38,440 bases of DNA, from the NCBI GenBank assembly GCA_015231295.1, contig JADGBU010000008.1, positions 1 to 38,440 on the forward strand, in the 5' to 3' direction. Source of the DNA: Magnetococcales bacterium. Its GTDB lineage: Bacteria; Pseudomonadota; Magnetococcia; Magnetococcales; Magnetaquicoccaceae. Both the position numbers and the translations under genes were made by a program. The notes beneath the pieces were generated by a model. It had not been told where the DNA came from. It saw nothing but the letters and a program-made list of their open reading frames with translations, and did not search any database. This document shows, one piece after another, positions 3,985 through 30,201 of the stretch. Each line of letters starts with the position of its first letter. Position 1 is the stretch's first letter.

Positions 3985-4619
3985 GGGACTGTGTGTTTCT
4001 TCTGGCGGACAGCAACATGAAGGGGGCCTTCGAGGGCTTCTTCTCGCGGGAGGCCTTTTATCACAGCATCGGTTGCGGCCCGTTCCGGTTCACGGCCAGC
4101 GAGGATCTGGTAGTCGCCGCCGGAGACAACGATCCCGGCCTTTTCACCCGAGGGCACGAACTGCTGCGCCCCTATCGGCAAACCCACCAGTATGCGCTGG
4201 TGGTGCTGGATGCCGCCTGGGAGGGATCCCCAGGGGCGGAACGAATCCGGCAAAAGGTCTCCACCAATCTGCTGGAATCCGGCTGGAGCCAGGATCGTTT
4301 CCATGTGGTGGTGATCGAACCGGAGCTTGAGACCTGGATCTGGCAACAGAATCCCCATGTGGCCACGGCATTGGGGTTCGATGATGTGGAAACCCTGATG
4401 GCGGATGACCTGCTGGCCAGGGCTTGGAGCGCGGGGCAACCCAAACCCAGCAATCCCAAGGAGACATTGGAAACCCTCCTCAGGAAGAAACGCATCCCCC
4501 GCTCTTCCGCGATTTACCAGAAAATCACCAGCAAGGTCTCGGTGCGCCAGTGTCAGGATGCGTCGTTTCTGGCCATGGTGGAAATCCTGCGCGGGTGGTT
4601 CCCGGAGGTGGTCCCATGA
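3981..4619 (+). CDS. mad4: DUF4276-like small protein, MAD4-like
   Basis: A 212-residue soluble protein. A hydrophobic strand followed by an acidic turn (VVLDAAWEG, D77/E81) and the acidic motif IEPELETWIW (E113, E115, E117, W119) resemble DUF4276-type proteins, which have a TOPRIM-like arrangement and often sit next to an AAA_21 ATPase. The C-terminal half is helical and basic (LRKKRIPRSSAIYQKI). A longer reading from upstream in the same frame is possible, but the ATG at 3981 overlaps the ATPase stop as ATGA, the rule in this operon, and it ends in another ATGA. The pairing suggests an ATPase-effector unit, with this protein as a candidate metal-dependent nuclease or accessory. The TOPRIM relationship is my reading of short motifs and is uncertain. 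Confidence 0.75.
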   Translation: MRDCVFLLADSNMKGAFEGFFSREAFYHSIGCGPFRFTASEDLVVAAGDNDPGLFTRGHELLRPYRQTHQYALVVLDAAWEGSPGAERIRQKVSTNLLESGWSQDRFHVVVIEPELETWIWQQNPHVATALGFDDVETLMADDLLARAWSAGQPKPSNPKETLETLLRKKRIPRSSAIYQKITSKVSVRQCQDASFLAMVEILRGWFPEVVP

Positions 4620-6019: not shown

Positions 6020-9000
6020 TCCCCATCGGCCAGCCGGTCAACGATGCGGAGCGGCAGGCCATTGCCTTTCTGCGGGACCATCTGCCCGATGACTGGAGCC
6101 TCTTCCATAATTTCGAGCTACGCCAGGGGGCGGAAGTCTTCGAGATCGACCTGGCGGTGCTGGCTCCCCACGCCCTTTATCTGGTGGATGTCAAAGGCAC
6201 GCGGGGGCTGATCGACGTTTACGGCTCCAAATGGTATCCCGAGGGTCGCCAGCCGTTTCACTCTCCCCTGGCCACCTTGCGCCAGCACGCCAAGGCCATG
6301 GCCACCCTGATCCGGGAGAGCAATCCCGGACTTGTCGAGTTGCGCCGCGCCCATGTCCACGCCACGGTGCTGTTGACGGCGGACGATGCCATCATCCAGG
6401 ATCAGGGTGGACTGGACAGGCCGGACGTCACCGATCTCAAGCACTGCCTGAAATATTTCCGCGACCTGACCCGCATCCCCTCCCAACGCGCCCAGGACAT
6501 TCGCAGGCTCCACCCCCAGATGGCCAAGGCCATCGCGGGCGCGGCCCGACCCCGCACCGCCGCCCGGGTTTTCCGGGACTGGCAGGTGGAGGAACGGTTG
6601 GGTGGTACGGAGCGTTTCACCGAGTACCGGGCCAAACACACCCTGATGGGCAAACGAGGCGGCATGGCCCGGCTGCGGGTCTATCATGTGGACGCCTACC
6701 AGGATGCCGCCAGCCGGGAGGCGGAACGCAAGCGCATCGGCAACGCCTTTCGCGCCGTGGCCCACATGCCGCCCCATCCCAACGTCCTCACGGTGCGGGA
6801 ATTCTTCGAGACCGACGACCAGGATCAACTGGTTTTAGTCACCGAGGATGTGGCCGGTCAGGCGTTGCGCCAGCATCTCAAAAAGCCCAGCCTGGCCCTT
6901 ACCTTCGACCAGAAGTTGCAGGTGATGCGGGATCTGCTGGATGCCCTGGACCATGCCCACCGGCACGAGGTGATCCACCGCAACCTGACCCCGGACGCCG
7001 TCATCGTCACCAGGGGCGGCCAGACCCGGGTGACCGCCTTCGACCATGCCCGAGTCGGCAAGCACCGCACCAGCACCATCGCCGATCAGATCGTGGATGA
7101 CCTGGAACCGGTCTATCAGGCCCCGGAGTGCTACCGCGACCCCGCCCAGGCCAGCATCGCCTCCGATCTCTACGCCGCCGGACTGATCCTTTACGAACTG
7201 CTCACCGGGGAGTTGCCGTTCGAGGATGTGGACCAGATGATGGAGGCGGATGGCAAGTTTCCCATTCCGCCCTCGACCCACAAACCGGATCTGCCCAAGG
7301 GAATCGACGGCTGGTTGCAGGCCTTTTGCGAGTTCGATCCGGAAGATCGCCACGCCAGCGCGGCCATGGCGCGCAAAGCGTTGGACGACCTGATCCTGCC
7401 TCCGGCCAAAGAGGCTCCGTCGGATCATGCGATGCGCCATCCTGTCCATGTCCAAGCCACTCCGGACGATCTGACCGACCTGCTGCCGGATTCCATCCTG
7501 GCGGATCGCTTTCGCATCCAGAAACGTCTGGGGGTCGGCGGCTTTGGCGTAGCCTACAAGGTGTTTGATTCGTTTGCGGATGTGGTGCGGGTGCTCAAAC
7601 TGGTGACCAGAGACCGGCACAGCGTTTTCGAGCGGCTGCGCCGGGAATACAAGACCCTCACCAATCTGCCAGACCACCCTCATGTCGTGAAGGTGATCTG
7701 GGCCGACCGTATGGGAGATTCCAAACAGACCCCGTATATCGTCTTCGAATATGTGGAAGGGTTGGATGTGACCGACCTGATCGAGACCAACGCCATCGGC
7801 CTGGAAGAGGCGGTGACCCTGATCCGGCAAGCGGCGGCAGGGCTGTCCCATCTGCATGCCAACGGGGTTTACCATCAGGACATCAAGCCCTCCAATCTGC
7901 TGCTGACCCATGGGGGTGTTCGCATCATCGACTTCAACGTTGCGGTCAGCGAGGCCGATGACGCTCATGGGGGCGGCACCCGGCGCTATCTGCCACCGGA
8001 CTACGACTATTCGACGGAACCGCAAGCCGCCGATCGCATCGACCGGGATCTTTACGCCTTGGGCATCACGTTCCATGAGTGCTTGACCGGCTGCTACCCC
8101 TTTGACGAACCGACACCACCACTGAAAACACCTCCCAGGGATCCCCGCAAGACCGCCCGCGCCGCCTTGGTCAGCCGGGAACTGGTGGAGATGCTGTCCC
8201 GCATGATCGCCCCGGAGCGGGTGAACCGCTTTTCGTCCGCCGACGAGGTGTTGCATGCCTTTGCCGCCATCAAACGGTTCCGGGAGGTGTTCTCCTCCAG
8301 CGAAACAGCCTCGGAGGTAAGATCGATTTCTCGGCTTGACCTATCCAGCTCGGCAAAACCGAACCACAACCCCTTCGTCACCCACCTGATGACCCTCTAC
8401 AGTCAGAGCAGGGTGACCAATGCCGGAACCCGGGGACTGGATGAGGTGGGAAAAGCCACCTACGTCTCCACCTGCCTGGATGAAAAACTGGGCCCGGCTC
8501 TGCTCACCGGTGAATTCCGGTTGGTGATCATCAGTGGGAACGCCGGAGACGGCAAGACCGCCTTCATCCAGCAGTTCGAGGCCCGAGCCGAAGGCAAGGG
8601 TGCCCAGCTCCAGCGCGGAGCCAACGGTGCGGTGTTCCGCATCAAAGGCCATACCTTCCAGAGCAACTACGACGGCAGTCAGGATGAGGGCGAAGAGCGC
8701 AATGATGCCGTGCTGGAGCGTTTCTTCGAGCCATTTCGGGGCGAAACGGCTGCGGGGTGGCCCTCGGACCAAACGCGAATCATCGCCATCAACGAAGGGC
8801 GCCTGGTGGATTTCCTCCTGGAACATGAGTCGGAGTTTCCTCTGCTTTCCCGACAGGTTCAGGACGGTCTGTCGGGTCGGCACCCACAAGATGGGCTGGC
8901 GGTGATCAATCTCAATCTGCGCTCGGTGGTGGCTGGCAAGTCGGATGGCGATTCCATCCTGGAACGGATGATGGCCGCCATGATCAAACGGGAGTTCTGG

Positions 9001-10146
9001 ACCGCTTGTGACTCCTGCGACCTGCAAGGGAAATGCTACGTCCGGCACAACGCCATGACCTTCCAGGATTCCACGGCGGGCTCCAAGGTGATGGAGCGGC
9101 TGAAAACGCTGTTCACCATCACCCATCTGCGTGGCCGCCTCCACATCACCATGCGGGATCTGCGTTCGGCGGTCGCCTACATGCTGGTGGGATCACGGGA
9201 TTGCGACGGTATTCACCAGCTTTACCAGCAGAGCGGAGAAGATGTCCAGAACCTGATCCTGGACGGTTTCTATTTCAACTCCTGGACCGGTGGCCGGGAA
9301 GGTTCCGCTGACCGTTTGCTTGCCCTTCTGCGGGAAATCGACGTAGCCCAGGTAAGCAATCCGGAATTGGACCGCGCTCTGGGCTTCGTGGACCCAGCCG
9401 AAAGAGGTATGAGCCGTTTTGGATTCGGCGAACGTGCCAACTACGACCAGGAGTTGATCGGCGCGCTATTCCGTGGTCTCCCTCGCGACTATACCGCCAG
9501 GAATCGTCCCAGGCTGATCGAGAAACACCGCAACTATGTCTCCCACCTGCGCCGCCGTCATTTTTTCGAACGCCGGGATACAGGTTGGCGATCCATGATT
9601 CCCTATGCGAGCGTGGAAATCTTCATGGCGGCCATTCAAAACCCGGGCGAGCCGAGGAGGATCGACGTGGCCGCCTTGATTCAGGCCATCAATCGTGGCG
9701 AGGGATTGACCGATCCTGACCGATTGGGCAACCAACTGGCCTTGCGCGTTCGTCGGGTGGAACGGGGGACCATCCGCAGCTATCGGTTGTTCAAGGGCGA
9801 GCACTTCCTTCTCCAGGCTGAACAGGGCGCAGAGGACAATCCCTTCCTGGAATCGCTCCCTCAGGCTTTGGTGCTTCGCTACGACTCCGGCGCGGGACAT
9901 CGGGCGGATCTGCGCATCACGCTGGACATCTTTGAAATGCTAAGGCGCATGGAATATGGCTACCGGCCCAGCGTGGAAGAGGAAAAAGGCTTCTATCTCA
10001 GTTTGGCCGTGTTCAAGAATGTCCTGTCCGCAGCGCCGTACCAGGAGGTTCTCCTGACCGAGAGCGGTTTTGACTTCTACCGCATCAGACGCAATGAGAG
10101 CGGCGTCCTCTATATGGAAAGATTGGGCGGGAGGGCCGAAGCATGA
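6007..10146 (+). CDS. mad6: NERD/pseudokinase/kinase/P-loop protein, MAD6-like (PglW-related)
   Basis: A 1379-residue multidomain protein. Residues about 10-120 are a NERD nuclease-related domain (EVFEIDLAVLAPHALYLVDVKG). Kinase-like domain 1 (about 190-490) has degenerate catalytic positions: HRN at 324-326 instead of HRD and AFD at 344-346 instead of DFG, so it is probably a pseudokinase. Kinase domain 2 (about 500-760) looks active: glycine loop GVGGFG from G509, ATP-binding K531, catalytic D625 in HQDIKPSN, and D642 in DFN. Beyond about 790 comes a P-loop module with GNAGDGKT at 844-851 and a Cys cluster (C1001, C1004, C1010). NERD plus kinase recalls PglW of Pgl/BREX systems. I chose the ATG at 6007, overlapping the specificity gene by 13 bp, over an upstream in-frame alternative. 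Phosphorylation targets are unknown. Confidence 0.88.
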   Translation: MAKVIPIGQPVNDAERQAIAFLRDHLPDDWSLFHNFELRQGAEVFEIDLAVLAPHALYLVDVKGTRGLIDVYGSKWYPEGRQPFHSPLATLRQHAKAMATLIRESNPGLVELRRAHVHATVLLTADDAIIQDQGGLDRPDVTDLKHCLKYFRDLTRIPSQRAQDIRRLHPQMAKAIAGAARPRTAARVFRDWQVEERLGGTERFTEYRAKHTLMGKRGGMARLRVYHVDAYQDAASREAERKRIGNAFRAVAHMPPHPNVLTVREFFETDDQDQLVLVTEDVAGQALRQHLKKPSLALTFDQKLQVMRDLLDALDHAHRHEVIHRNLTPDAVIVTRGGQTRVTAFDHARVGKHRTSTIADQIVDDLEPVYQAPECYRDPAQASIASDLYAAGLILYELLTGELPFEDVDQMMEADGKFPIPPSTHKPDLPKGIDGWLQAFCEFDPEDRHASAAMARKALDDLILPPAKEAPSDHAMRHPVHVQATPDDLTDLLPDSILADRFRIQKRLGVGGFGVAYKVFDSFADVVRVLKLVTRDRHSVFERLRREYKTLTNLPDHPHVVKVIWADRMGDSKQTPYIVFEYVEGLDVTDLIETNAIGLEEAVTLIRQAAAGLSHLHANGVYHQDIKPSNLLLTHGGVRIIDFNVAVSEADDAHGGGTRRYLPPDYDYSTEPQAADRIDRDLYALGITFHECLTGCYPFDEPTPPLKTPPRDPRKTARAALVSRELVEMLSRMIAPERVNRFSSADEVLHAFAAIKRFREVFSSSETASEVRSISRLDLSSSAKPNHNPFVTHLMTLYSQSRVTNAGTRGLDEVGKATYVSTCLDEKLGPALLTGEFRLVIISGNAGDGKTAFIQQFEARAEGKGAQLQRGANGAVFRIKGHTFQSNYDGSQDEGEERNDAVLERFFEPFRGETAAGWPSDQTRIIAINEGRLVDFLLEHESEFPLLSRQVQDGLSGRHPQDGLAVINLNLRSVVAGKSDGDSILERMMAAMIKREFWTACDSCDLQGKCYVRHNAMTFQDSTAGSKVMERLKTLFTITHLRGRLHITMRDLRSAVAYMLVGSRDCDGIHQLYQQSGEDVQNLILDGFYFNSWTGGREGSADRLLALLREIDVAQVSNPELDRALGFVDPAERGMSRFGFGERANYDQELIGALFRGLPRDYTARNRPRLIEKHRNYVSHLRRRHFFERRDTGWRSMIPYASVEIFMAAIQNPGEPRRIDVAALIQAINRGEGLTDPDRLGNQLALRVRRVERGTIRSYRLFKGEHFLLQAEQGAEDNPFLESLPQALVLRYDSGAGHRADLRITLDIFEMLRRMEYGYRPSVEEEKGFYLSLAVFKNVLSAAPYQEVLLTESGFDFYRIRRNESGVLYMERLGGRAEA

Positions 10147-11831
10147 GCATCAAAGGACGCGACAAGGAATTTCGCACCCCCAGGATCAGTTATCTGGACT
10201 TCAAGCATATCGAAATGGATCGGGTTCTGACCATGCTGTTCCCCCGTCTGAAATACGATGGGTACGGCAGCCGACGCCCGCCTCGCGGGGGAGATCTTTC
10301 CGTGGAAATGTTCCGGGAGGACTTCCTGGAACATCCGGAATGGTTCGCCGGGTTCGATGCCTTTCCCGAGGTGGTGTACCGTTGGATCGAAACCGACCTG
10401 ATGGATGTGGTGAATCGTGGCAAAGCCAATCAGGCCGTGGCCGCACCACGCCCTCTGCACGGGAACACCTACAAATTCCGCAACGCCCGTCATACCCGTG
10501 ATTACGGAGCCGCCGAACAGATCTACTGGATGCTCTTCTACGCCAGAAAAACCAAGGGTCAGGCTGCACGCGACGCCTTGAAGCAGTTTTTCTTTCCCGG
10601 CATCGATCTGGTCACGGACAGGTATGACCCTAACATTGCGGTTGATGTGGAGACCCAGGCCATCCTGCGGCTGGATCACCAGGTCACCCAAGACATGAAG
10701 GATTCGAAAGAGCCAGAGCGTCATCCACCCCTCTGCATCGGCCAAGCCGACCTGCTGGCGGATGATATCCTGCGTTTATTGGCTTACGAACCCTATATTC
10801 CCCGATCGGTGCTGGTGGACTATCTGAAGACACTGATGGCGTTTCATCTGGCCCTGCACCATATTCGGCTCCTGTTCATGCTGCCCAGGATGGTCAAACA
10901 ACGTTCGGGGGGTGATCCGTGCTCGCCGAGGGAATGTCCGGTCCATCCCGGAAACAGTATGGCGCTGGACGGGTGTCCCTATCAGGTTCCACTGATGGTG
11001 GATATGGGGGATCCCCTCAACGAGGAGATGCACGAACTGGCACGTCGATCCGCCGACCGGGTGTACCGTCAGATTCCCACGTTCGTTCAGGCAAACTTCG
11101 TCGTCAAAAAGCTGGATGAAATGGCGGAATATCTCAGCAGGAAGACGGGGAAACTGGCTGTTCCTCCTTCAGGGGATTTCCTGGTGGACGATCTGGTGTC
11201 GCTGCTCAAGCCCGAACACGACAACGAGCGCATGGCCTATTTCAAATTTCGATTGGCAAGTTTGATCGAAACAACCGGGAAAGGAGCGGACGATCTGGAC
11301 CCGGAGATCCGTAAAGCCACAGCCATGGGGTTGGATGAGTTCGAGACCTTCATCGAGATCCTGATGGCATATCGGGGCAAATATCACCGGCAGTACATCA
11401 CGGAATGTCTGGATTCCTTGTTGCTGAAAAATCGGGATAGCGGGCTATTGGCTCAGGCACGTTCCAAGGGAAGCCCGCGTCGATTTCAGTTGGGAAGTAA
11501 ACTTCTGGAGGTGCTGATCCAACTGGCGGTCCTGACCCAGGCCGGAGGCTGTTTCATGACCCGTGAAGTGCGCGTCGATGATCTGCTGGCCTTTCTGCGA
11601 GGTCGTTATGGGTTATATCTTGACCGATTCCCGGAAGCGAAGAAGGCTGGTGAAGGGACCAGCATTCTTGAGAGGCGCGCCCTTCGCCTGAATCTGGAGA
11701 CATTCAAAACCAGGCTGCGGGAGATTGGTTTCTTCGAAGATCTCTCGGATGCCTACGTGACGCAAAAGATATCGCCTCGGTATACCATCGAACGGCAGTG
11801 CCCCAGCACGAATGATGGAAGGCAGGCATGA
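10143..11831 (+). CDS. mad7: Defence-operon protein of unknown function, MAD7-like
   Basis: A 562-residue protein with no domain I can name. It is mostly helical and soluble, with a possible metal site: C260, C265 and C278, with H268 between them (CSPRECPVHP...DGCPYQ). It begins with an ATGA overlap with the kinase gene and ends with another into the large ATPase gene, so it belongs to the same translation-coupled operon. The C-terminal third (YVTQKISPRYTIERQ) is basic. Position between the kinase and the HerA-like ATPase matches MAD7 in the MADS gene order. It could be a kinase substrate or an adaptor for the ATPase; nothing in the sequence decides this. Confidence 0.8.
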   Translation: MSIKGRDKEFRTPRISYLDFKHIEMDRVLTMLFPRLKYDGYGSRRPPRGGDLSVEMFREDFLEHPEWFAGFDAFPEVVYRWIETDLMDVVNRGKANQAVAAPRPLHGNTYKFRNARHTRDYGAAEQIYWMLFYARKTKGQAARDALKQFFFPGIDLVTDRYDPNIAVDVETQAILRLDHQVTQDMKDSKEPERHPPLCIGQADLLADDILRLLAYEPYIPRSVLVDYLKTLMAFHLALHHIRLLFMLPRMVKQRSGGDPCSPRECPVHPGNSMALDGCPYQVPLMVDMGDPLNEEMHELARRSADRVYRQIPTFVQANFVVKKLDEMAEYLSRKTGKLAVPPSGDFLVDDLVSLLKPEHDNERMAYFKFRLASLIETTGKGADDLDPEIRKATAMGLDEFETFIEILMAYRGKYHRQYITECLDSLLLKNRDSGLLAQARSKGSPRRFQLGSKLLEVLIQLAVLTQAGGCFMTREVRVDDLLAFLRGRYGLYLDRFPEAKKAGEGTSILERRALRLNLETFKTRLREIGFFEDLSDAYVTQKISPRYTIERQCPSTNDGRQA

Positions 11832-14800
11832 GCGACCAGTTCAAAGAGTTGTTGCCAGGACAGTTGCATTCCGCAATCTCGGACTTTCTGTCGCCCAGAA
11901 TCGAGGCGACACTGAACGACCGTGGAGTCGGCCACTGCATGCGCATCACCGACTTGGACGAAGCCGTTATGGAAACGGTTTGTTCGGAGCTGAGGCGAGG
12001 AATGCCAGACGGCAATATCTTCATTCTGGGATCTCATGAAGATGAACGTCGTCCCTTCCGGATCACATCAACCAAGTTGGTTGAACTTCGGAACCCGGAA
12101 ACCAACGGGCGATTGCGGTCCCCGTTGCTGGTCTTCATCCCTGCTTCGCTCCGGACCAGTGCTGAAGACTCATTCGGCATTGCCACATTCGAAGAACTCG
12201 CCTTTCCACAACTCTATCGAGAACTGATTCAGATTCTGTTGCAACGTGTGCCATCATCTCTGGTGGGACAGGTGCGCAGTCTGTTTGAATTCTTGACGGA
12301 CGAAGGCTGGCCATTCGGGAATGACATGGCCAAGGTGAGGTTTCTGCTGACGGCACTATCCAATGGCATTGATGGCGAGACCCTGGGCGCAAGTCTGTAC
12401 GAGTTGACGCTCATTCCGGATTTCAAATTGTTCGTAGAACCGGCTGTCGTTCATGCCAGGCTTCGAAGGAATCTGCTTTGTGTTCGGCATCTCATGGGAT
12501 CTCCGGCCTCGACGCGGGGAAGGGTCGTCGACCTGGATCTTGAAGAGCGGTCGTTGGAGCAGACCCTTCACCGGTTTTTTATCAAATGGGATATTCAGGA
12601 ACCAGAAGTATGGACCAAGCCTGTTGTCCTGCAGAAGGAATGGTGGCCAATTTCATTCGATAACTGGGCGTTCAAGGAAGAGTCAACCCTGGGCAGGATT
12701 CAGTTATCTGTCATTGAGATTGATCTTCCGTTTGTAAAAAATGGAGAAAAAAATGAGTGTCTCATCGATTTGATTGGTCAGCAGATACTGGTCCCAAAAG
12801 AACGACAGAAATTGAATGTTGTATTCGAGGTTAATCCCCACCCAGGAAAGGTCCAGGGCTTGGACCATTTCACAGTTCAAATCATGGCCCAGGATGGGGG
12901 TCCTATTGGCAAGTCGAAAAAGGTCAAGGTCTGGAGATCAAACCGTAATAGATGCACCGTCGATTTGACCAACCTGAACAAAGTCGAGTTCAGCGAAGGG
13001 TGGCATTTCATCCGGGTTCTGCCATGGACTGCAGAAGGTGATCCCGTTCCCATGGAAAATGAGGATGATGCGGACGATATCTCCTCAAAACTTTACGATA
13101 GTCAACCATTCTTTGTGTTTCCCGGCGGGGTGTCTATTGACGTAGATCCTCCTCAACGAGCCATCCCAATTGAAAAAAGTCTGGAGCATGCCCGTCTGCG
13201 CTTGCAGATGACGGCACTTGGGAGTGACCGAGATCCCTGGGCAGTGCAGCCAACAAATGTTGCATGGGCCGAAGGAGCCAGAAGAACTTCCCGCCAGGAG
13301 ATGTTGCATGTGAAATTCGGCAGGGAAGGCATGGTCCAGATTCACCTTTCCCGAGTGTTGAAGAACATCGAGCAACGTATTCTTGCCAATCCCAACCATC
13401 CATCAGGATGGCGGATGCAAATCAATATGAACACAGCGGAGCATCCTTGCGAAATTGGTCTGATCACACCATCCAGCAACGCCATGAAATCCTTCCTGGC
13501 CGCCAGAGCGGATTTCTTTTCCCATGTCAGACATGGAGAATCTGAACTTGTGATCCAAGGATGTGCATTGCCAGAGGGTTCGGACAAATGCTTGCTGTAT
13601 GCCCAATCGTTTTTGGATCTGGTTTGCAGTCAGATGCGGCAAGCAGAAACATCAACCGGATCTGAACGTCAGGCCCATTTGCAAGCTTTAAAGAGTGTTC
13701 TGGCCGTTGACTCCATCCATGCCGTTTTGACTGATTACCGAGGCAAGTGCAGAGAAGCCTTATTGGTTGCGCCAACGCATCCTTTACGCGCCCTTTGGCT
13801 CTCCGGATGGGGATACCTGGGAAAGGAATGGATTGCCAGAATACAGTCCGGTGGACGTGACCATTTGCCAACCGTTCGAAGTGCTCTTCTGGAGGTACTC
13901 CAGCCGTCAGCATTCCCCATGGGGATTCCCGTCGATGATGGCCGGATTTTCATCAGTGTTGAGAATTTGAATGCATTCTGGGGGATGTACGCTCCAACCA
14001 CAGAGGATAACTCCAGAGGTTTGGTGTCGGATATCTGTGCAGCTCTCGGTATTCCTGAACCAGAAGCCGCTGGATCTGATGTCTCAGGCCAAATTCTGGC
14101 AGAGAAGCTGGAGCGATACCTTTCCCAACATCCCTATGTGAGAGAATTATCCATTAACGTTTTCAATCCGGGGGCTGGCAGTGACATCGCGAATGCTTTG
14201 GTTGCGCTTCAAGATAAGTCGGAATTTTCCGGCCTGCGCTATGATGTAAGGCTGTTCTCTGCGGATTCCACCGCACCAATTTTCGTAGATGCTTTTGATC
14301 AGCTTGTTCGACCTGAGAACATTGTCAACGAGGCAGCAGAAGCTTTTGCGTCATCATCAAGCAGTCACCTCTTCACCAAGTTGAAGGTGGCAAGGCACTC
14401 ATTGGACGCTTTTAAAGCTGTCCCAGAAGCCTACGCTGCGCATGTGAGCGTTCTTCTTGATGTCTTTCCAGCAGAGGAGTTGTCAGTAGCCGAGAAAGCC
14501 CATAGCCATGTCCCTCTGTTCGGTCTGATCCAGGATTATGAAACAACCTTCGTCGATGATGAATCGGGGACCTATTGGCGAAAGGCACCTGTCATCGGTG
14601 TAGTTGGGAATCCACCCGAAAAAGAAGAGACATTTGACCTGATTGCCAAACTGAATGCTCATGTCTGTATGGCAACTGCTGCGGTAGCCGCATCGGGGGC
14701 GAGCTTCAAGGCTGTTCCTGTCGTCACCTTGAAATTGGATGTTGAACAGCGAGAACTGATTTATGAGGTCCATCGAGTCAGCGACTGGGTATTTACGGTT

Positions 14801-17323
14801 GACCGCCACATGGGTATTGAATTTTTCGATCATGGAGGTCTCAAGGACAGACCAGACTACTTGATTGATTTTGTTTCTGGGGCCAGTTCTCTTTCTGCTT
14901 ACAACTTGATCGTTTCGTCTCGCTCTACGGAAGAACTGGAAATCATGCTGAGGCCAGTTCTTGAGAATCATGGCCTTTCCGCCACCGGGAAACATGCGAT
15001 CAAAGTGCTTTCATACCTCCGGTCGCTGTCAGGGCAACTGGCCTTGAAGCTCATTTCATCCCCAACGCAACAGACAGAAGCGCTTGGCCTCGCATTGGCC
15101 AGGCTTTACCTGGAATATCAGGGGGCATTGAGCAATCAGATCATACTTCCTCTCGATGCCCATACCGACCTGTACAGAGGCTCTGGCCAAACAGATGAAA
15201 TCGAAGATGCCATTAGCCTGCAACGTACTGATCTGGCGCTGTTCGATCTTGATTTAGCCAACCGGACCGTCACCTGCAATTTGGTGGAAGTGAAGTGCTA
15301 TTCTCAGGTGGGTGACTTTTCTGCATTCAATCAATTAAAGGAAAAGATCACCGGACAGATTTCCCAAAGTGAGCGCATTCTCCAGCGGCATTTTGACCCT
15401 GGCCTGAAGAAACCAGACCGACCTGACCGTTTGTTGAAGAGTCGTGAATTCGCAAAGACATTGCAGTTCTATTTGGAGCGCTCCTTGCGCTATGGCATCA
15501 TGGAACCAGTGACAGCACATGAAGCGCATCAGTTCTTGCAAAGCATTGAGCGTGGTTATGCGCTTCAGTTCCGACGTAGCGCAATCATATTCGATTTTGA
15601 CAAACAGGGAACCGAGCCGTTTGAAACAGAGGTAGGTATCGAATTTCACCGGGTGGGGAGGGATTTGATTCAAGCACTCTTGGAAGGCTGTGACACATCA
15701 ACTCGGAGTGAAGGTGGACAAGAGCCGGCATTTGAGAGATCCCTCAGCGAACTCAGTCTTCCTCATGTGCCAAAACTGGAATCGGCTGCTTTTATTGCTC
15801 CAAAACGCGAGCGTACTGGAACCTGGACGCTGACTGCAAACGATTTCCATCCTGAAGTGGCAGTGGAGAGCTTGCCCGTATCCGCCGACAAAGGCAGCTC
15901 TGCAGAATTTTGTGATGGCGCTCATGAAGAAGAGTTTTCCTTTTCTGCCACCACCAAGACGCCCGCTGCAGAAAACGCTTCCAAACCATATCGCTATGAC
16001 CTAAATATGAAAATTGCAGATCCTAAGGAAAAAGAGATATCAATTCTTGCTGCCATTACTCGCGATGCAGAACAAGCAAAAGTTGCAGGTCCACAGACAA
16101 ATGATCTGCATGATTCACAACAAGTTGCCTATGACGTCATGCTTGGGGTCACGGGAGAATCCCCTCAATACGGCCTTCTAGGGGAAGTGTCTGGCCGAAA
16201 GATCGCCTTGGATCTGAACCACACTCACACGATTAGCCTTTTTGGAGTTCAGGGGGGCGGCAAAAGCTACACCCTGGGTACGGTTATTGAAATGGCCTCA
16301 ATGGCTGTCTTGAATTTGAATGTCCTTCCAAGCTCTCTGGCCACAGTCATTTTCCATTACAGCCCCACTCAGGACTATGCGCCCGAGTTTACCTCCATGA
16401 TTCACCAAAATTCCGTGGTGGAGGAGATTCAAATTCTTCGAGATCGGTACCAAGCCAATCCGCAAGCCCTCAAGGATGTCGTGATTCTAACACCAGCAGA
16501 CAAGGTTGCGGAGCGCAAGGCCGAGTATCCTGATCTGGAGGTTTATCCCATCGCCTTTTCTGCAGGAGAACTCAAGGCAACCCATTGGAAGTTCCTTATG
16601 GGGGCAATCGGCAGTCAGAGCATGTACATGCGCCAAATCAATCTCATCATGAGGGGACTGCGAAGTAATCTGACATTGGATTCAATCAGAAGCGGAATTG
16701 AAAATTCTGGCCTTTCTGACCATCTGAAGGATTTGGCTAAAACTCGTTTACAGTTTGCTGGCGAGTATATCAGCGATGGACAACGCCTTCAGGATCTGAT
16801 ACGACCAGGTCGACTGATCATCGTTGACCTGCGGGATGAGTACATCGAAAAGGACGAGGCATTGGGACTGTTTGTGGTGATGCTGCAGATTTTTTCGGAG
16901 GCCACTTTCAACGGGCAGGCATTCAACAAAATGGTTGTCTTTGATGAGGCCCACAAGTATATCGAGAATGACGACCTGGTCACCGGCTTGGTTGAGGTCG
17001 TTCGAGAGATGCGGCATAAGGGGACGAGCATTATGGTGGCATCCCAGGATCCACCCTCCGTACCAATTTCGTTGATTGAACTATCTTCTCAGATCATCAT
17101 GCACAAATTTAACTCACCCGCGTGGCTCAAACACATCCAGAAGGCCAACGCTGCGCTTGGTGAATTAACCTCGGAGAAAATGAGCCGCTTAGGGACTGGG
17201 GAAGCATATGTTTGGTCGAGCAAGGCCAGCGATGACACCTTCTCCAAGGGAGCGGTCAGAGTAAAATGCCGACCTCGCGTAACCCAGCATGGTGGGAGTA
17301 CCAAAACGGCGATTGCAGGGTGA
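11828..17323 (+). CDS. mad8: Large HerA/DptH-like ATPase with PD-(D/E)XK-type motif, MAD8-like
   Basis: A 1831-residue protein, the last of the operon. The C-terminal 390 residues form a HerA/FtsK-type ATPase: Walker A GVQGGGKS at 1473-1480, Walker B VVFDEAHKY with D1706/E1707, then a HerA-like SQDPPSVP segment. In front of it, about residues 1095-1260 carry a PD-(D/E)XK-like core: D1135 in RTDLALFDLD, then E1154-V-K1156, followed by a helix with NQLKEKITGQISQ. The first 1000 or so residues are unrecognised. DptH of phosphorothioate-dependent restriction has a similar size and ATPase, so this may be the DNA-translocating effector. Some stretches are AT-rich (33% GC in 12,721-12,780) compared with the kinase gene. 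Start: ATGA overlap with the previous gene. Confidence 0.87.
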   Translation: MSDQFKELLPGQLHSAISDFLSPRIEATLNDRGVGHCMRITDLDEAVMETVCSELRRGMPDGNIFILGSHEDERRPFRITSTKLVELRNPETNGRLRSPLLVFIPASLRTSAEDSFGIATFEELAFPQLYRELIQILLQRVPSSLVGQVRSLFEFLTDEGWPFGNDMAKVRFLLTALSNGIDGETLGASLYELTLIPDFKLFVEPAVVHARLRRNLLCVRHLMGSPASTRGRVVDLDLEERSLEQTLHRFFIKWDIQEPEVWTKPVVLQKEWWPISFDNWAFKEESTLGRIQLSVIEIDLPFVKNGEKNECLIDLIGQQILVPKERQKLNVVFEVNPHPGKVQGLDHFTVQIMAQDGGPIGKSKKVKVWRSNRNRCTVDLTNLNKVEFSEGWHFIRVLPWTAEGDPVPMENEDDADDISSKLYDSQPFFVFPGGVSIDVDPPQRAIPIEKSLEHARLRLQMTALGSDRDPWAVQPTNVAWAEGARRTSRQEMLHVKFGREGMVQIHLSRVLKNIEQRILANPNHPSGWRMQINMNTAEHPCEIGLITPSSNAMKSFLAARADFFSHVRHGESELVIQGCALPEGSDKCLLYAQSFLDLVCSQMRQAETSTGSERQAHLQALKSVLAVDSIHAVLTDYRGKCREALLVAPTHPLRALWLSGWGYLGKEWIARIQSGGRDHLPTVRSALLEVLQPSAFPMGIPVDDGRIFISVENLNAFWGMYAPTTEDNSRGLVSDICAALGIPEPEAAGSDVSGQILAEKLERYLSQHPYVRELSINVFNPGAGSDIANALVALQDKSEFSGLRYDVRLFSADSTAPIFVDAFDQLVRPENIVNEAAEAFASSSSSHLFTKLKVARHSLDAFKAVPEAYAAHVSVLLDVFPAEELSVAEKAHSHVPLFGLIQDYETTFVDDESGTYWRKAPVIGVVGNPPEKEETFDLIAKLNAHVCMATAAVAASGASFKAVPVVTLKLDVEQRELIYEVHRVSDWVFTVDRHMGIEFFDHGGLKDRPDYLIDFVSGASSLSAYNLIVSSRSTEELEIMLRPVLENHGLSATGKHAIKVLSYLRSLSGQLALKLISSPTQQTEALGLALARLYLEYQGALSNQIILPLDAHTDLYRGSGQTDEIEDAISLQRTDLALFDLDLANRTVTCNLVEVKCYSQVGDFSAFNQLKEKITGQISQSERILQRHFDPGLKKPDRPDRLLKSREFAKTLQFYLERSLRYGIMEPVTAHEAHQFLQSIERGYALQFRRSAIIFDFDKQGTEPFETEVGIEFHRVGRDLIQALLEGCDTSTRSEGGQEPAFERSLSELSLPHVPKLESAAFIAPKRERTGTWTLTANDFHPEVAVESLPVSADKGSSAEFCDGAHEEEFSFSATTKTPAAENASKPYRYDLNMKIADPKEKEISILAAITRDAEQAKVAGPQTNDLHDSQQVAYDVMLGVTGESPQYGLLGEVSGRKIALDLNHTHTISLFGVQGGGKSYTLGTVIEMASMAVLNLNVLPSSLATVIFHYSPTQDYAPEFTSMIHQNSVVEEIQILRDRYQANPQALKDVVILTPADKVAERKAEYPDLEVYPIAFSAGELKATHWKFLMGAIGSQSMYMRQINLIMRGLRSNLTLDSIRSGIENSGLSDHLKDLAKTRLQFAGEYISDGQRLQDLIRPGRLIIVDLRDEYIEKDEALGLFVVMLQIFSEATFNGQAFNKMVVFDEAHKYIENDDLVTGLVEVVREMRHKGTSIMVASQDPPSVPISLIELSSQIIMHKFNSPAWLKHIQKANAALGELTSEKMSRLGTGEAYVWSSKASDDTFSKGAVRVKCRPRVTQHGGSTKTAIAG

Positions 17324-24359: not shown

Positions 24360-24760
24360 CAGCCGGGCTCCTGCCGCAGGGTCAGCGCAACCGACCACGA
24401 GTTGGGGGAGCGTTGCAACGGCTCCAAAACATCCTGGACAAAACGGACGGTCATGATCGCACCTCGGGAATCCTGGAATTGCCACGCGTTGGCGCGGCCA
24501 TTGACACCGGCAGCAGGAGAGGATGACGAGAAAAACGATTTGATCGCATCGGCCTGGGTTGCCGACAGCGGATACAGTGTCACGGTGAACACCGTCACCG
24601 ACGGGGGGCCGATGGTGTAAACCACCGCCGCTCCGGAGTCGGTCTCCAGCACGGTTTGCCGCATCCGTACAGGCCTGGAGGCGGGCAGTTGCTCCACATC
24701 CGGCAACACCACCTGACACGAGGGAGCCGCAATCGTCGGATAGGCGAGCCTGATAGCCAT
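24359..24760 (-). CDS. Small tail protein after the tape measure
   Basis: A 133-residue protein (MAIRLAYPTIAAPSCQVVLP) with a beta-rich body and the pattern RANAWQFQDSRGAIMTVRFV. Its ATG overlaps the tape-measure stop by one base (TAATG), and its stop overlaps the hub gene's start, so the three are translation-coupled. Position suits a distal-tail or tail-tip adaptor protein. No family is recognised. Confidence 0.7.
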   Translation of the reverse strand: MAIRLAYPTIAAPSCQVVLPDVEQLPASRPVRMRQTVLETDSGAAVVYTIGPPSVTVFTVTLYPLSATQADAIKSFFSSSSPAAGVNGRANAWQFQDSRGAIMTVRFVQDVLEPLQRSPNSWSVALTLRQEPG

Positions 24761-27705
24761 TACCGCCCCCCCAGATAGCCCAACTCCGGAGCGATGATGT
24801 CGCGGACGATGCGCCGCCACTCGTCACGGGAGAACCCGGAGCCGCCATTGCCTCCGTTGAGGTTCAGGGTGAAATCGCCGAAGGTCGTGCTGCTGCTGGC
24901 GTTGGAGATGACCTGTTCGCCCTGATGGAGCGCGTAAATGCCATTGCGTGGAATGTAGGTGGTGCCGGAGGCGTAGCCTTGATCGTAATACATTTCATCG
25001 ACTTGAGACGTTCCGCCGGACGAATCCTCGCCCCCACCGCCGCCGCCAGACACGCGATTCCAGGCGTTGATGATCCAACTGACCGTGGCGCGCACCCGAT
25101 CGGCCAACTGCGAAAATCGATTGGCGAGACCATCGACGATTCCGCCGATCGTATTGGAGACCCGATCAAACGACCGGGAAAACCAACCAAACGTATTGTC
25201 AACAATGTCTGCAATCGACGCCCTGATATTTCCAGCCATCTCCCTGGCCCTCTCCCGGATCTTTCCGAACCCTTGGGAGATTTTTTCATACGCGTACTCC
25301 GTATTGGCGACCATTCCGCCGAACCCAATCGCCAGGACATTAAAGAATCCGACCACCTCGCCACACAACAAGCCGATGATGGCCGCCGTAATCCCGATTA
25401 TCTTACCGATCAGGAGTAGCCCTGGTTGCATATCGTCCAGCCAGGTTTTGACATCGTTATAGGTCTTCAGAAACCCGTCCTTGAATTCGATCAATTGCCC
25501 CGCCGTAACCTTGAACGATTCCACGACGCTATCAAATCCCTCGATGAGGCTCCTGGATGTGCCCGCAGAAACAATCCTCAACCCTTCGAGCGTTTTGACC
25601 ATCCTGGCGATGGACGGAGATGCGGCCTCCATAAAATCCTGCTTGGCGATACTGCCGAGTTCCTTCAGAGTTTTGACGATGTGGTCAAACCATCCGACAA
25701 TCGCCCTGGAAACCGCTCCGGCGGTCAGATGCATGGCATTGAGTTCCCTGGTCATAATTTTCAGAGCATCCGGGGAGAGGCTGGCGACGGCAGAGACAAA
25801 ATCAAGGATGGATGATTTGGCCGTACCGACTGCCGTACCGACTGCCGTGCCAAATGTGGCGGCAAAGCCTTTGACGGCCTCCATCTCTTTCAACCGGCCA
25901 CCGATCTTTCCGAACGCATCGCCGATTCCGCTGCTCAGAATCCCCACAACCCGGAGCACTGCCTGGAATGCTGGACCGACGACCTGCCACCACTCCAGGA
26001 TGCGATTCTTGCTCCATACGATTGCCTCTCCAACCCAACGGAACCCATCGACGATTCCGGTGAGCACCGATTTCGTCGTCACTCCATTGGATTGCAGCGC
26101 GCTGCCAATGCCTGAGAAAGCGGTGCCTGTCACCACCCCGAGATCGACGAGCACATCCCGGATCCATCGGAACGTGGCCGCCAACCCCTTCCCGACACTC
26201 TCGCTGGTGACGCCGTTTTCCCGGAACGCAGCCCCAATGCTGACAAAAGCTGCGGTCGCGACTTGGCGCAACTCCCGCACCACATCCCGAACCCAGAGAT
26301 AGGCGTTGGCAATCCCCGTCGCCGCCTGAGAACCGGTCGTTTCCCAGCCGATCGTATAGCCGGTGATTTGAATGATGGACGAAACGACGAACGAGGCGAG
26401 ATCGCCAAAACCGGTGACCAGCTCGTCCCATATACCTCCCGTCAGGGTCGTCGCCGCATCGATGCGGTGGAACGCCTCCGTAAAAACCCACCCGAACCAG
26501 GAGACCGCCTCTCCCAGCCACCGGAATGTCCGGGTCTGCCCCAGCAGCGTGATCTGGTTGTGCAGCCAGATTCCGGCGTTGCCGACCTTCAGCAGAATCG
26601 GGACAACGTATTGCCCCAACGAGCCCACGGACTCACCGAGGGCCTTGGTTGCCCACACCACCTGGGGCAACTGTAAAAACCACGTCATCTGCTCGGCTGC
26701 CAGCTTCTGACCGGACGACACCGCCTCCCCCATTTTGAGGACCAGCGTATCATACGCGCCGGAGAGTCCGGTCAGTGCCGCCTTCAGACCGCTGTTTTGG
26801 GTCTCGGCTGCGCGGGCGGCCTGCCCGTTGGACTGGACCTTGGATTCCATTTCGCGCAGAGCGTCGGCCCCGGACGAGAGCAGAATCGCCAGCGTTGGGC
26901 CCGCGTCCGCCCCGAATTGAGAGACGGCTTTGTCCGCGTTCCATCCGGCCCGCGCCATCGACTCGATAATATCCACCAGAGGACGCACCTCTCCCTTGGC
27001 GGTCCGCATCTGGATTCCGAACTTTTCGGAATTCTGGTTCAGCTCGGCGAACAAGGATTTGAGCCCGGTCCCAGCCGCCTCGCCGCTGTTGAACGAGTTG
27101 CTGAGCACGCCCAAAGCGGCGGTGGTGGCCTCGAACGACTGGCCCATGGCGTGCGCGGTGGCCCCGGAGTTGCGGAACGCCACGGCGATCCGCTCCGCGC
27201 TGAGGGTCGAGGCACTGATCGCGGCGGTCAACGTGTCGGCAATCGCGGTGGTCTGTTCGGCCTTGAGGCCGAATTGCCCCATGATCATGGTGACGTTTTC
27301 CGACGTGCGACCCAGACTGGCATTGGTGGCCGCAGCCAGGGTCAGCACCGGATTGAGGGCCTCGATCGCCTGGGCGGCACTCAATCCGGCGGAAGAGAGG
27401 TCGTACAGCGCATCGACGGTTTCCGTAGGGTTGAACCGGGTCGAGCTGGCCGCCTCCATCGCGGCTACCTTGAGGGCATCGAAATCCTGTCGCGTGCCGT
27501 CGCTGGCGGCCTGGATGTTCAGAAGCCCCTGCTCGAACTCGGCAAAGGAGTCTCCGGCCAGCACGGCGGCGGCCACAGCCGCCGAAGCGATCGCGGCCAG
27601 AGCGATTCCGAGCCTTTTGGCCGCATCCCCGACGCCGCCCAGCACTTTGCTGGCCTCGTCGCGGGCCTTGACCACCATCTCCAACTCAAAATCTTTACAC
27701 GCCAC
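24760..27705 (-). CDS. Tail tape measure protein
   Basis: A 981-residue protein that sets tail length and is packed in the tube. The N-terminal third carries the TP901/PhageMin tape-measure signature (NPTETVDALYDLSSAGLSAA, then VTMIMGQFGLKAEQTTAIA and AFRNSGATAHAMGQSFEATT). The middle has long helices and hydrophobic stretches, plus two near-identical 43-residue repeats (about 465-507 and 508-550) and the start of a third. The end has the usual YASGTTYIPRNGIYALHQGE motif. I chose the GTG at 27,705 (MACKDFELEMVVKARDEAS), with AGAGG upstream, because it matches the usual opening; GTG 27,720 and ATG 27,678 are alternatives. Confidence 0.9.
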   Translation of the reverse strand: MACKDFELEMVVKARDEASKVLGGVGDAAKRLGIALAAIASAAVAAAVLAGDSFAEFEQGLLNIQAASDGTRQDFDALKVAAMEAASSTRFNPTETVDALYDLSSAGLSAAQAIEALNPVLTLAAATNASLGRTSENVTMIMGQFGLKAEQTTAIADTLTAAISASTLSAERIAVAFRNSGATAHAMGQSFEATTAALGVLSNSFNSGEAAGTGLKSLFAELNQNSEKFGIQMRTAKGEVRPLVDIIESMARAGWNADKAVSQFGADAGPTLAILLSSGADALREMESKVQSNGQAARAAETQNSGLKAALTGLSGAYDTLVLKMGEAVSSGQKLAAEQMTWFLQLPQVVWATKALGESVGSLGQYVVPILLKVGNAGIWLHNQITLLGQTRTFRWLGEAVSWFGWVFTEAFHRIDAATTLTGGIWDELVTGFGDLASFVVSSIIQITGYTIGWETTGSQAATGIANAYLWVRDVVRELRQVATAAFVSIGAAFRENGVTSESVGKGLAATFRWIRDVLVDLGVVTGTAFSGIGSALQSNGVTTKSVLTGIVDGFRWVGEAIVWSKNRILEWWQVVGPAFQAVLRVVGILSSGIGDAFGKIGGRLKEMEAVKGFAATFGTAVGTAVGTAKSSILDFVSAVASLSPDALKIMTRELNAMHLTAGAVSRAIVGWFDHIVKTLKELGSIAKQDFMEAASPSIARMVKTLEGLRIVSAGTSRSLIEGFDSVVESFKVTAGQLIEFKDGFLKTYNDVKTWLDDMQPGLLLIGKIIGITAAIIGLLCGEVVGFFNVLAIGFGGMVANTEYAYEKISQGFGKIRERAREMAGNIRASIADIVDNTFGWFSRSFDRVSNTIGGIVDGLANRFSQLADRVRATVSWIINAWNRVSGGGGGGEDSSGGTSQVDEMYYDQGYASGTTYIPRNGIYALHQGEQVISNASSSTTFGDFTLNLNGGNGGSGFSRDEWRRIVRDIIAPELGYLGGR

Positions 27706-28350
27706 TTTGCGCCTCTTCACGAACCTTCTGGAGACAGAACTCGATGATCTCCAGGGCGTCCATCACCACGGCAGGCTGATCCAGAATCCCCCCGGAGACG
27801 GGGAGATGTCCTTTCCGGTAGTGATGCCACACCTGGAAAAGCGGGTTGAATCTTGCCAAAAGCCTTACCGGACACTCTTCGGACGGCTCGACCCCGGCGA
27901 TCCACTCGACCGCCGTTTCCTCGCGGCACCGGTCCGGCCTTGAGAGGTACGGGCAGCGATCGCACACCCGACCGGAATCTGCGGTGCGGACTGCCCGTTG
28001 GAGTTTTTTTCCATCTCCCGTCCGACGCGGTTGTGGCTCACGATGGCGTTGACCAGCTCGGCAATCTCCTGGGGATCGGTCGCCAGATCCAGAATCCCGT
28101 CCACGCTCATGGACGCCGGAATACCCCCTCCGACGATCCCGCGAACGCCCAGCTTGCACAGATCGAGCATGATTCCGATCTGTTGAGGGGCGTTCTCCTG
28201 GGTGATATCCGCCGCCATACCGGCGGCCATGCTCGCGATCCGCACCCGCTCGGCCATGTTCAGTGTCTTGATTGTGAATACCGTCGGATCGGGCTTCCCC
28301 AAATCCGCCTTCAGGATGTACGAGGCATCGCCTCCCAGCGCGAATTGCAT
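27695..28350 (-). CDS. Tail chaperone -1 frameshift product (GT-type)
   Basis: A predicted 218-residue fusion: residues 1-116 of the chaperone, then a -1 slip on A AAA AAC (28,003-28,009) into a frame that runs on as LQRAVRTADSGRVCDRC and ends at 27,695, just at the start of the tape-measure gene. The extension has a Cys pair (CDRCPYL), a WI and a terminal helix MDALEIIEFCLQKVREE, so it looks like a coding domain rather than noise. Lambda G/GT uses the same arrangement. The slippery heptamer and the frame are seen directly; the efficiency and any stimulating structure are not known. Confidence 0.8.
27865..28350 (-). CDS. Tail assembly chaperone (zero-frame product)
   Basis: A 161-residue protein that begins MQFALGGDASYIL, with GGAG in good position before the ATG at 28,350 (a TTG at 28,371 is possible but less likely). 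The first 116 residues form the real domain (IGIMLDLCKLGVRGIVGGG, then DGILDLATDPQEIAELVNAI). The A AAA AAC slippery site at 28,003-28,009 is in the correct frame; beyond it the zero frame is a short basic tail. It lies between the tail tube and tape measure, where long-tailed phages encode a G-type chaperone. Known: such chaperones coat the tape measure during tail assembly. Confidence 0.85.
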   Translation of the reverse strand: MQFALGGDASYILKADLGKPDPTVFTIKTLNMAERVRIASMAAGMAADITQENAPQQIGIMLDLCKLGVRGIVGGGIPASMSVDGILDLATDPQEIAELVNAIVSHNRVGREMEKNSNGQSAPQIPVGCAIAARTSQGRTGAARKRRSSGSPGSSRPKSVR

Positions 28351-28363
28351 GAAATGTCTCCGG

Positions 28364-29296
28364 TCAGGCAAAGGTCAAAAGGAACTGATCGTCGCCGTCC
28401 ACCTCGCAGCACTCGAACACCCGTTCGTTCGAGATTCTGCCGGAGCGGTCCTTGGGATTGGATTCGACCAGCACTGCCTTCGGAATGTCCAGAACCAGAG
28501 CCCCTCCATTGAACGAGGCGTGAAGGGCAAAGCTGCTGGACGCCAGCAGCCGGTTCCAGTCGGAGAGCGTGGCCGTGGCAAACGGATCGATTTTCAGGGT
28601 CGGTTTGTGATCGAGCAGATAGACATTCACCCCGACACTGGAAACACTCACCTGAATCTCGGCGTTCAGAGAGAACTCGAACGCGCCGATATCGATCTCG
28701 TCCCCGTTCGAGGTAACGGCGGTCACACTGGAAAACGTCACCCGGTTTCCGGGATCTGGAGGAGCGGCGGGGATGGCGATGTTCGTGTCCGCCTCGCTCC
28801 ACGGGGCGGACAGGGTGAATTTGAAAACCAAACCATCCTTCGGCGCGCCGGTCAGCGTGAAGGTGCCGCGCACGCCAACCAGGCTGTATTGATGACCGGC
28901 AAAGAACAGCTCCGCGCTGGAGGATTGTGCGGTCTTGGGGTTGTCCGTGGTCTGGGGTTCATAGGTAACTTTGGTGTTGGCCGTCACGGTCTCTTTGAGC
29001 CCGCACGCAAACAGAAGCTCGGCCACGGTCGGTTTGGCACCGGGCGTGGCCGCCTTGAACGCCGGGGTGTCGATTTGCAACGAGATGTCCGATCCGTCCG
29101 GGTCGAACTCGGGCATGTCCGGCCCGAACGTGCGTTTGGCGACGTTCTTCTTGTCCACCCGCATCGGGCTGAGTTTGGGGGTGAAAGTCAAAATCGAGGC
29201 GACCCCGTTGGTCGCGTCCGGGGTGGACGACACGCCGGGCGTGACCTCGCGTTTGATCAACAGGGCCTTTCTGAGTACAGATGTGGATCCTGGCAC
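28364..29296 (-). CDS. Tail tube (major tail) protein
   Basis: A 310-residue beta-rich protein (LLIKREVTPGVSSTPDATNG at the start, then LVGVRGTFTLTGAPKDGLVF and SFNGGALVLDIPKAVLVE). It begins at a GTG at 29,296 supported by a strong AGGAGG a few bases upstream. It lies directly before the chaperone and tape measure, the usual place for a major tail tube protein in long, non-contractile tails. No tail-sheath gene is found beside it, unlike Mu itself. The name rests mainly on position and fold pattern. Confidence 0.78.
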   Translation of the reverse strand: MPGSTSVLRKALLIKREVTPGVSSTPDATNGVASILTFTPKLSPMRVDKKNVAKRTFGPDMPEFDPDGSDISLQIDTPAFKAATPGAKPTVAELLFACGLKETVTANTKVTYEPQTTDNPKTAQSSSAELFFAGHQYSLVGVRGTFTLTGAPKDGLVFKFTLSAPWSEADTNIAIPAAPPDPGNRVTFSSVTAVTSNGDEIDIGAFEFSLNAEIQVSVSSVGVNVYLLDHKPTLKIDPFATATLSDWNRLLASSSFALHASFNGGALVLDIPKAVLVESNPKDRSGRISNERVFECCEVDGDDQFLLTFA

Positions 29297-29305: not shown

Positions 29306-29761
29306 CTAATAATAGACGGTTAATTTCCACTCCTGGCCCCAAACGACCAGGGATGGGCTGGAGGAGAGGAGCCACTCCCGACCCGGATACATCTCGGATG
29401 CGCGCTCCAGAATGCAGCGACCCATCAGGGCCGCCCGGGTTGCCGTCAGCAGGTCGTACACCCCGACCCGATCCGCATCCCCCCGGGCTGCCGCGTTGCG
29501 ATCTCGGAACGAGCGGGCGGCCAACAGCAGCGTGACGGTGTGAACCACGTCGTAATGATTGCCGGGGCGCAGCAGGGTGGGCTCGGCTGACGTGGCCACC
29601 GCCATGCACAGCGGAGCCGGACGACTGGACGACACCTGTTTCAGCTCCTCCAAACTGAACGCACCGCTGGCCTGCAATGTCCGCAACGGGCCGCCCTGGC
29701 TCTGATGCAGCGGGGCCAGGGCGGTCAGCAGGGCATCCTCGATGTCGGCGTGGTCGGCCAT
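29306..29761 (-). CDS. gp37-like (DUF1834) head-tail connector or tail terminator
   Basis: A 151-residue protein (MADHADIEDALLTALAPLHQ ... YDVVHTVTLLLAARSFRDRN) that resembles the Mu gp37/DUF1834 family, tail-completion proteins found after gp36. A TTG one codon earlier is possible, but the ATG at 29,761 overlaps the previous stop (ATGA). The last residues (WLLSSSPSLVVWGQEWKLTV) are hydrophobic strands. In the virion it would probably cap the tail at the head-proximal end. Confidence 0.75.
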   Translation of the reverse strand: MADHADIEDALLTALAPLHQSQGGPLRTLQASGAFSLEELKQVSSSRPAPLCMAVATSAEPTLLRPGNHYDVVHTVTLLLAARSFRDRNAAARGDADRVGVYDLLTATRAALMGRCILERASEMYPGREWLLSSSPSLVVWGQEWKLTVYY

Positions 29762-30201
29762 CAAAACCCCCGAAGCGTCCGGCTGTCGAAGATTCGCGGC
29801 GGGGCGACGAAAAGCGGAGACGCCCCCGAAACCGGGGTCGAGGAGGTGACGGCAGACGGCTGCGCATGCAGAACGATCACCCCTTGCCCGAGATCAACCA
29901 GATATTTCACCGCCTCGTCCCGCGCCTGCCGAATATGCGCCTCGATCGTCTCGCGACGGTTGCGGTGCAGATTGAAGAACGCCAGAGCCATCACGTGGGC
30001 CGCGAGGTCGGCTGGCACCTGCGCCAAGGGCAACGCATATCGGCGCGTCAGATAGCCGTCCACCAGTTCGCAGGCCGCATCGATGGCCCGTTGCAACAGC
30101 GCGTGATCGATCTCTCCCAGGGGAGGATCCGCACGATCCGTCAGATCCTGGATCGTCTCCTGGCCGTAAGCCTCGATCATCTCTGTCGTGGTCGTGTACA
30201 T
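29761..30201 (-). CDS. gp36-like (DUF1320) head-tail connector
   Basis: A 146-residue protein with the DUF1320 pattern: MYTTTTEMIEAYGQETIQDL, then ALLQRAIDAACELVDGYLTR RYALPL, DLAAHVMALAFFNLHRNR and RDEAVKYLVDLGQG. Mu gp36 and relatives join the head to the tail. The ATG at 30,201 follows the capsid stop by 2 bp, so a longer upstream frame is not needed. The neighbours on both sides are the major capsid and gp37-like genes, the standard order. Confidence 0.85.
   Translation of the reverse strand: MYTTTTEMIEAYGQETIQDLTDRADPPLGEIDHALLQRAIDAACELVDGYLTRRYALPLAQVPADLAAHVMALAFFNLHRNRRETIEAHIRQARDEAVKYLVDLGQGVIVLHAQPSAVTSSTPVSGASPLFVAPPRIFDSRTLRGF

Follow-up and report, generated by a model that had tools for sequence, protein, structure and literature searches.

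Frameshifting between the tail assembly chaperone genes G and T is widely conserved in long-tailed phages despite low sequence similarity, and in phage lambda the products G and GT occur in a molar ratio of 30:1, which is said to be crucial, with neither of them present in the mature virion (PMC5009743). Two tail-chaperone genes of the HK97 type had measured -1 rates of 6% and 7% (PMC3711429), an A AAA AAC tail-chaperone site was tentatively assigned in Paenibacillus phage Dragolir (PMC6003738), and the authors of PRFect suspect that many "hypothetical" proteins are such frameshifted chaperones (PMC10885494). Here, we describe a locus of this well-known kind on the minus strand of contig JADGBU010000008.1 (GenBank assembly GCA_015231295.1). 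This whole contig of 38,440 nucleotides from a metagenome-assembled Magnetococcales genome (84.65% complete) is called the window in the following. With high confidence, we read the locus as a tail-assembly chaperone gene of the lambda G/GT type, whose decoding involves programmed -1 ribosomal frameshifting. It is a confirmed and very well supported addition to the frameshifted tail-assembly chaperones and extends a classic example of recoding to a Magnetococcales prophage and a wide range of phages, most of them uncultured.

The zero-frame open reading frame (ORF) of the chaperone, G, covers 28350-27865 (ATG at 28350, stop at 27867-27865) and encodes 161 amino acids, of which residues 1-114 precede the slip. 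The heptamer A AAA AAC lies at 28009-28003, embedded on the minus strand in G-AAAAAAA-C. Its zero-frame reading, GA[A AAA AAC] TCC with the codons GAA AAA AAC, has the phase that tandem -1 slippage requires. From the slip onward, the -1 frame stays open for 104 codons (28009-27695; two lysines plus 102 residues, with a TAA stop at 27697-27695); this extension, T, is the proposed C-terminal part of a GT fusion. An earlier note on this DNA, made from the sequence alone, had suggested a programmed -1 frameshift with A AAA AAC in the correct frame, followed by a 102-residue domain ending at 27695 just before the tape measure gene. The coordinates and phase of the site proved right and the length exact, and the end of T overlaps the probable start of the tape measure gene (GTG at 27705-27703, picked by eye against relatives). 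A point absent from that note is that the zero frame continues for 47 codons beyond the slip.

Lambda is similar in having a short ORF between the tail tube and tape measure genes, a -1 slip near the 3' end of this ORF and a T that reaches the tape measure gene (PMC5009743). However, the lambda heptamer is G GGA AAG, and lambda T has no cysteine and no sequence similarity to T of the window (hhalign probability 0.1), which was not found to belong to the lambda T family. Genes gp93/gp94 of Caulobacter phage phiCbK, annotated as a programmed frameshift, likewise show A AAA AAC immediately followed by a zero-frame stop, and phage Colossus has GGGAAAC, an alternation matching the one seen here (PMC3556154). 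In contrast to T of the window, phiCbK T lacks cysteine, and homology between the two is not supported. In Acinetobacter phage Loki, AAAAAAC adjoins the gp12 stop and gp12/gp13 are annotated as a joined coding sequence (CDS) (PMC5313236), but its T is unrelated by profile comparison and a tail-completion gene precedes the tape measure. The D3112 group of Mu-like siphophages (PaMx73) resembles the window in that Mu-like head genes accompany a siphophage tail and a -1 slip has been proposed, although at T TTT TTC (PMC4378225); the downstream ORF annotated in D3112 is just 42 aa long.

Slippage itself, its rate, its ribosomal nature and the functions of both products are put forward here as the probable mechanism. 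Most ribosomes would read G to its stop. A minority, slowed by a hairpin 4 nt further on, would slip back by one base while tRNA-Lys and tRNA-Asn occupy A AAA AAC, and would add the 102 residues of T to the 116 preceding ones, so that a GT fusion of 218 aa results. If the products act as in lambda, G and GT would bind the tape measure protein, whose gene follows directly downstream, T would recruit the tail-tube protein, whose gene directly precedes G, and neither G nor GT would remain in the finished tail.

Conservation of the slippery site and the -1 frame

The present analysis shows the reading frames, the conservation of the site, of its phase and of the -1 domain, the gene order and a hairpin signal at the level of the family. 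Two genomes of the same genus carry related loci (G 44-47% identical, T 53-65%), and both keep A AAA AAC and the -1 frame. Using the -1 domain in tblastn, Microcystis phage Mae-JY22 and Alteromonas phage P24 were detected at about 30% identity, each with an in-phase heptamer where the -1-domain match begins. No DNA-level match was found in phages, and scans of viral sequences with G and with a three-row T profile gave no relative. Unlike the latter, a five-row T profile (window, the two same-genus relatives, Mae-JY22 and P24) did retrieve viral relatives, namely 46 IMG/VR contigs, along with 9 of 398 genomes including the first three. A further search led to alphaproteobacterial phages, namely JP1 (A AAA AAC), RcTiptonus (A AAA AAG), RHph_I4 and L338C (both G GGA AAC); of its 10 records, the analysis covered these four and P24 but not P11VFA, a second L338C record or three further Rhodobacter phages.

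A -1 domain was detected by a hidden Markov model (HMM) in 58 loci, which include near-duplicates. The non-redundant set comprises 39 of them (T similarity under 0.9) plus three phages, i.e., 42 loci, and 17 are left at a 40% identity cut; L338C (locus L074), similar to RHph_I4, stands outside the 42. The heptamer was taken as the last in-phase AAAAAA near the HMM start, except for locus L067 (GGGAAAA), which was picked by hand.

An in-phase heptamer precedes the -1 domain in 57 of the 58 loci, and the contig of the 58th, L030, begins downstream of the slip site, for which reason it was dropped. In 49 loci the heptamer sits exactly at the model start, and in eight it lies 42-108 nt upstream of a partial match. 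Across the 42 loci, the site is A AAA AAC (32), A AAA AAG (5), A AAA AAA (3), G GGA AAC (1) or G GGA AAA (1), and all five types persist among the 17 loci of the 40% cut. Any X XXY YYZ motif occurs at just 15 of 4700 in-phase positions of G upstream of the junction in the same 42 loci. As one retrieval pattern contained KKL, which favors AAAAAAC, loci independent of it were counted separately: 21 of 39 loci fall outside the KKL pattern (14 viral, 7 genomic) and all 21 have the in-phase heptamer, as have the three added phages, which matched from query residue 9 or 13 onward (24 of 24 in total). The last base of the codon before the slip is A in 38 of 39 loci, against 11.5 expected from synonymous usage, even though this codon encodes nine different residues. 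As the site in RHph_I4 and L338C is a different slippery heptamer, G GGA AAC, it is slipperiness that is kept rather than a pair of lysines. The earlier note had named loss of the site or of the -1 frame in relatives as grounds for giving up the frameshift. Both are conserved, as is the position before the tape measure gene, many loci carry a predicted hairpin, and the interpretation stands. Further in-phase heptamers lie more upstream in loci L015 and L029. Missing queuosine as a cause of A AAA AAC is unsupported, as a TGT homolog is present in the genome.

The same variation bears on the idea that transcriptional rather than ribosomal slippage on the A run joins the frames. The window has seven A's and most relatives have six to nine, which would suit such slippage. 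Nevertheless, it appears very improbable, given that L004 and many other loci have only six A's, that RHph_I4, L338C and L067 have GGGAAAC or GGGAAAA and no homopolymer, and that the hairpin tends to sit at the distance usual for ribosomal slippage. An error in sequencing or assembly might be suspected for a homopolymer in an incomplete metagenome-assembled genome, as might a frameshift mutation that disabled the gene while the prophage decayed, but both frames and the site recur in the two same-genus genomes, in IMG/VR contigs and in six named phages. Moreover, in 20 of the 42 loci, all with A AAA AAC, the zero-frame stop codon adjoins the heptamer, which is hard to explain by error; we consider such an origin hardly conceivable.

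T might also be a separate gene with its own start inside or beside G. In the window, the -1 frame is opened by a GTG at 28159, upstream of the slip, and for five of the six named phages the depositors annotated internally starting ORFs in this frame. However, in 20 of the 42 loci, neither ATG, GTG nor TTG occurs in the -1 ORF between the upstream stop and the first conserved cysteine codon, and T is therefore hardly a separate gene in those loci; in P24, no start is available before T codon 92. In the other 22 loci, including the window, the start test does not discriminate. Taken together, a separate T gene seems very improbable to us.

Programmed frameshifting is also consistent with how the two frames diverge where they overlap. 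The zero frame continues past the slip for 47, 37 and 34 codons in the three Magnetococcales loci. Over T codons 4-45 in three close relatives, T third positions account for 60 of 124 changes summed over pairs, and second positions, which correspond to T third positions, for the largest share of changes in the zero-frame tail (42 of 94); these counts stem from three non-independent pairs, and the codon range slightly exceeds the overlap in L003 and L004. Across this range, T is 49-63% and the zero-frame tail 45-53% identical. Judged from these substitutions, the frame under constraint appears to be T, with far weaker constraint on the G tail.

The putative downstream hairpin and points against frameshifting

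A putative stimulatory hairpin lies at 27998-27949, separated from the heptamer by a 4-nt spacer and closed by a 9-bp basal stem (27998-27990 / 27957-27949). Its minimum free energy is -27.6 kcal/mol (z -2.79), and 4 of 200 shuffles are as stable. In the family, folding of the sequence 3' of the heptamer compared with dinucleotide shuffles gave a mean z of -2.04 for 50-nt and -1.26 for 80-nt segments (n=39). With synonymous-codon shuffles, the mean z over the 42 loci is -1.38, and 35 of them are negative (Wilcoxon p 2e-7), versus a z of -0.35 (p 0.25, n=41) for a control segment further along T. In several relatives, one arm of the hairpin encodes the residues after KKL and the other the surroundings of the first conserved cysteine codon. 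Between one and four covarying pairs were found in five of six alignment groups and none in the sixth; since the residues encoded by both arms are conserved and not all pairs are intact, covariation is weak evidence. An Rfam scan returned a single match (E 4), far under the gathering score.

Several observations weigh against programmed frameshifting at this locus. AAAAAAC occurs four times in the window, where 3.90 occurrences are expected by chance; the heptamer by itself was therefore not used as evidence, and the support is comparative. The loci compared are related, and their counts do not represent independent events. It is the relatives, and not the window with its upstream GTG in the -1 frame, that exclude separate initiation of T. 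The window hairpin is marginal when codons are shuffled synonymously (z -1.60, p 0.065) and weak over 80 nt (z -0.95), the hairpins of L003 and L004 do not reach significance with synonymous shuffles (p 0.33 and 0.19), and in four of the six groups of aligned hairpins some pairs are broken. An upstream Shine-Dalgarno (SD)-like stimulator is unsupported (window p 0.60, median p 0.40), with anti-SD pairing averaging -5.9 kcal/mol versus -4.7 in synonymous controls. Finally, A_AAA_AAC reportedly shifts far less readily in E. coli than A_AAA_AAG (PMC5009743), so that the rate could be low.

The strength of the hairpin signal differs with the heptamer. The mean z is -1.83 at A AAA AAC (n=32), 0.02 at A AAA AAG (n=5) and 0.42 at A AAA AAA (n=3), and the single GGGAAAC locus has a z of -1.17. 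Comparing A AAA AAC with the other ten loci gave a Mann-Whitney p of 0.0002, a value that relatedness confounds, with L064, L066 and L068 resembling one another and L056 resembling L058. The pattern is as expected if the hairpin compensated for the lower shiftiness of A_AAA_AAC, a possible trade-off, and this natural variation of heptamer and hairpin offers a way to measure how phages set the G:GT ratio. Loci without a downstream hairpin signal are the genome loci L062, L063, L064, L066 and L068, which have A AAA AAG or A AAA AAA. Locus L051 (A AAA AAC) has a z of -2.36, versus -0.08 and -0.41 in the similar-looking L056 and L058 (A AAA AAA).

Predicted products of the two frames

T of the window contains the cysteines C16, C19, C28 and C46, counted from the slip. 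At least four cysteines are found in 41 of the 42 T domains, the exception being L047, which lacks that segment, and the four aligned columns hold cysteine in 41, 41, 38 and 41 of the 42. AlphaFold2 modeled T with a predicted local distance difference test (pLDDT) score of 87.1. Foldseek found no PDB match of this model with E at or below 0.001 (in VIA, the best row had Z 3.4), and the best hit in BFVD was V9QJJ1 (E 0.02). No credible family was detected for T in Pfam, PHROGs or NCBIfam. Among 32 members, there were weak single-member matches only, the strongest to phrog_412 (E 0.0073); one member matched phrog_9001 "tail assembly chaperone" (E 0.042), and the lowest E values were 0.07 in Pfam and 0.034 in NCBIfam. 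Nor was such a four-cysteine domain described in the accessible parts of PMC5009743 and PMC5313236, which came up for tail assembly chaperone frameshifting together with cysteine and zinc in a search outside which most subscription journals lie.

As the earlier note had foreseen, annotation misses the gene: in none of the six named phages (P24, Mae-JY22, RHph_I4, L338C, JP1 and RcTiptonus) is a joined G/T gene annotated. The -1 extension of P24 (L013; 5011-5304) has no annotated CDS in the deposited record, and in the other five a separate hypothetical ORF starting inside the extension is annotated. That gene callers do not see G/T as one gene is our suggested reason why the domain family goes unrecognized.

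The new element is a T-domain family with four near-invariant cysteines that is not credibly matched in Pfam, PHROGs or NCBIfam. Going by the cysteines, T may bind a metal. We give about even chances to the broader proposal that the frameshift-only T is an undescribed four-cysteine metal-binding domain (zinc or iron-sulfur), by which this group would add a metal center to the tail-initiation complex only via recoding, with the heptamer classes possibly tuned too (the weaker A AAA AAC with a hairpin, A AAA AAG and A AAA AAA without). In any case, the four-cysteine domain provides a testable handle on the role of T in tail initiation.

The predicted fold of G has a pLDDT of 73, and its zero-frame tail past the slip (28002-27865, about 45-47 codons), which is basic, is modeled with low confidence. 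Foldseek matches of G were re-aligned with VIA-align, and the top three of the eight entries listed were 3klu (Z 6.8, 91 residues aligned, rmsd 5.0 A), 5ir0 (Z 5.9, 93, 3.7 A) and 2ob9 (Z 4.6, 84, 4.4 A), with all Z values under the caution level of 8 of the tool. Entry 2ob9 is the HK97 tail assembly chaperone, but it shares only 5% identity with the G model, and its modest Z is below those of 3klu and 5ir0. A few of 28 G members gave weak matches to chaperone PHROGs (phrog_344, E 0.0012; phrog_313 in three; phrog_8233, E 0.0037), and G of the window itself matched phrog_35536 only (E 0.013). Nothing credible was found for G in Pfam or NCBIfam. The modeled fold, of modest Z, together with the gene order, fits a tail chaperone.

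Neighboring genes in the window

The Pfam scan showed a minus-strand order in which a Mu-like head module (Portal_Mu, Mu F, Gp37) is followed by a siphophage-type tail. Within the latter, G/T lies between the tail tube gene upstream (28364-29296, minus strand; PF18906, E 3.9e-09) and the tape measure gene downstream (27705-24760, minus strand), whose PhageMin_Tail domain was matched by PF10145 (E 6.8e-30, placed in 24760-27720). The ORF at 29306-29764 (minus strand) matches Phage_Mu_Gp37 (E 4.5e-09) and, more weakly, Phage_tail_terminator (E 0.094); the PHROG that it matches bears the label "portal protein", which may be wrong.

Beside the prophage tail module, on the opposite strand (692-17323, plus), PADLOC matched the proteins mad2 to mad8 of MADS, the methylation-associated defense system, in order. 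For the first gene of this array, a type II methyltransferase model outscores mad2.

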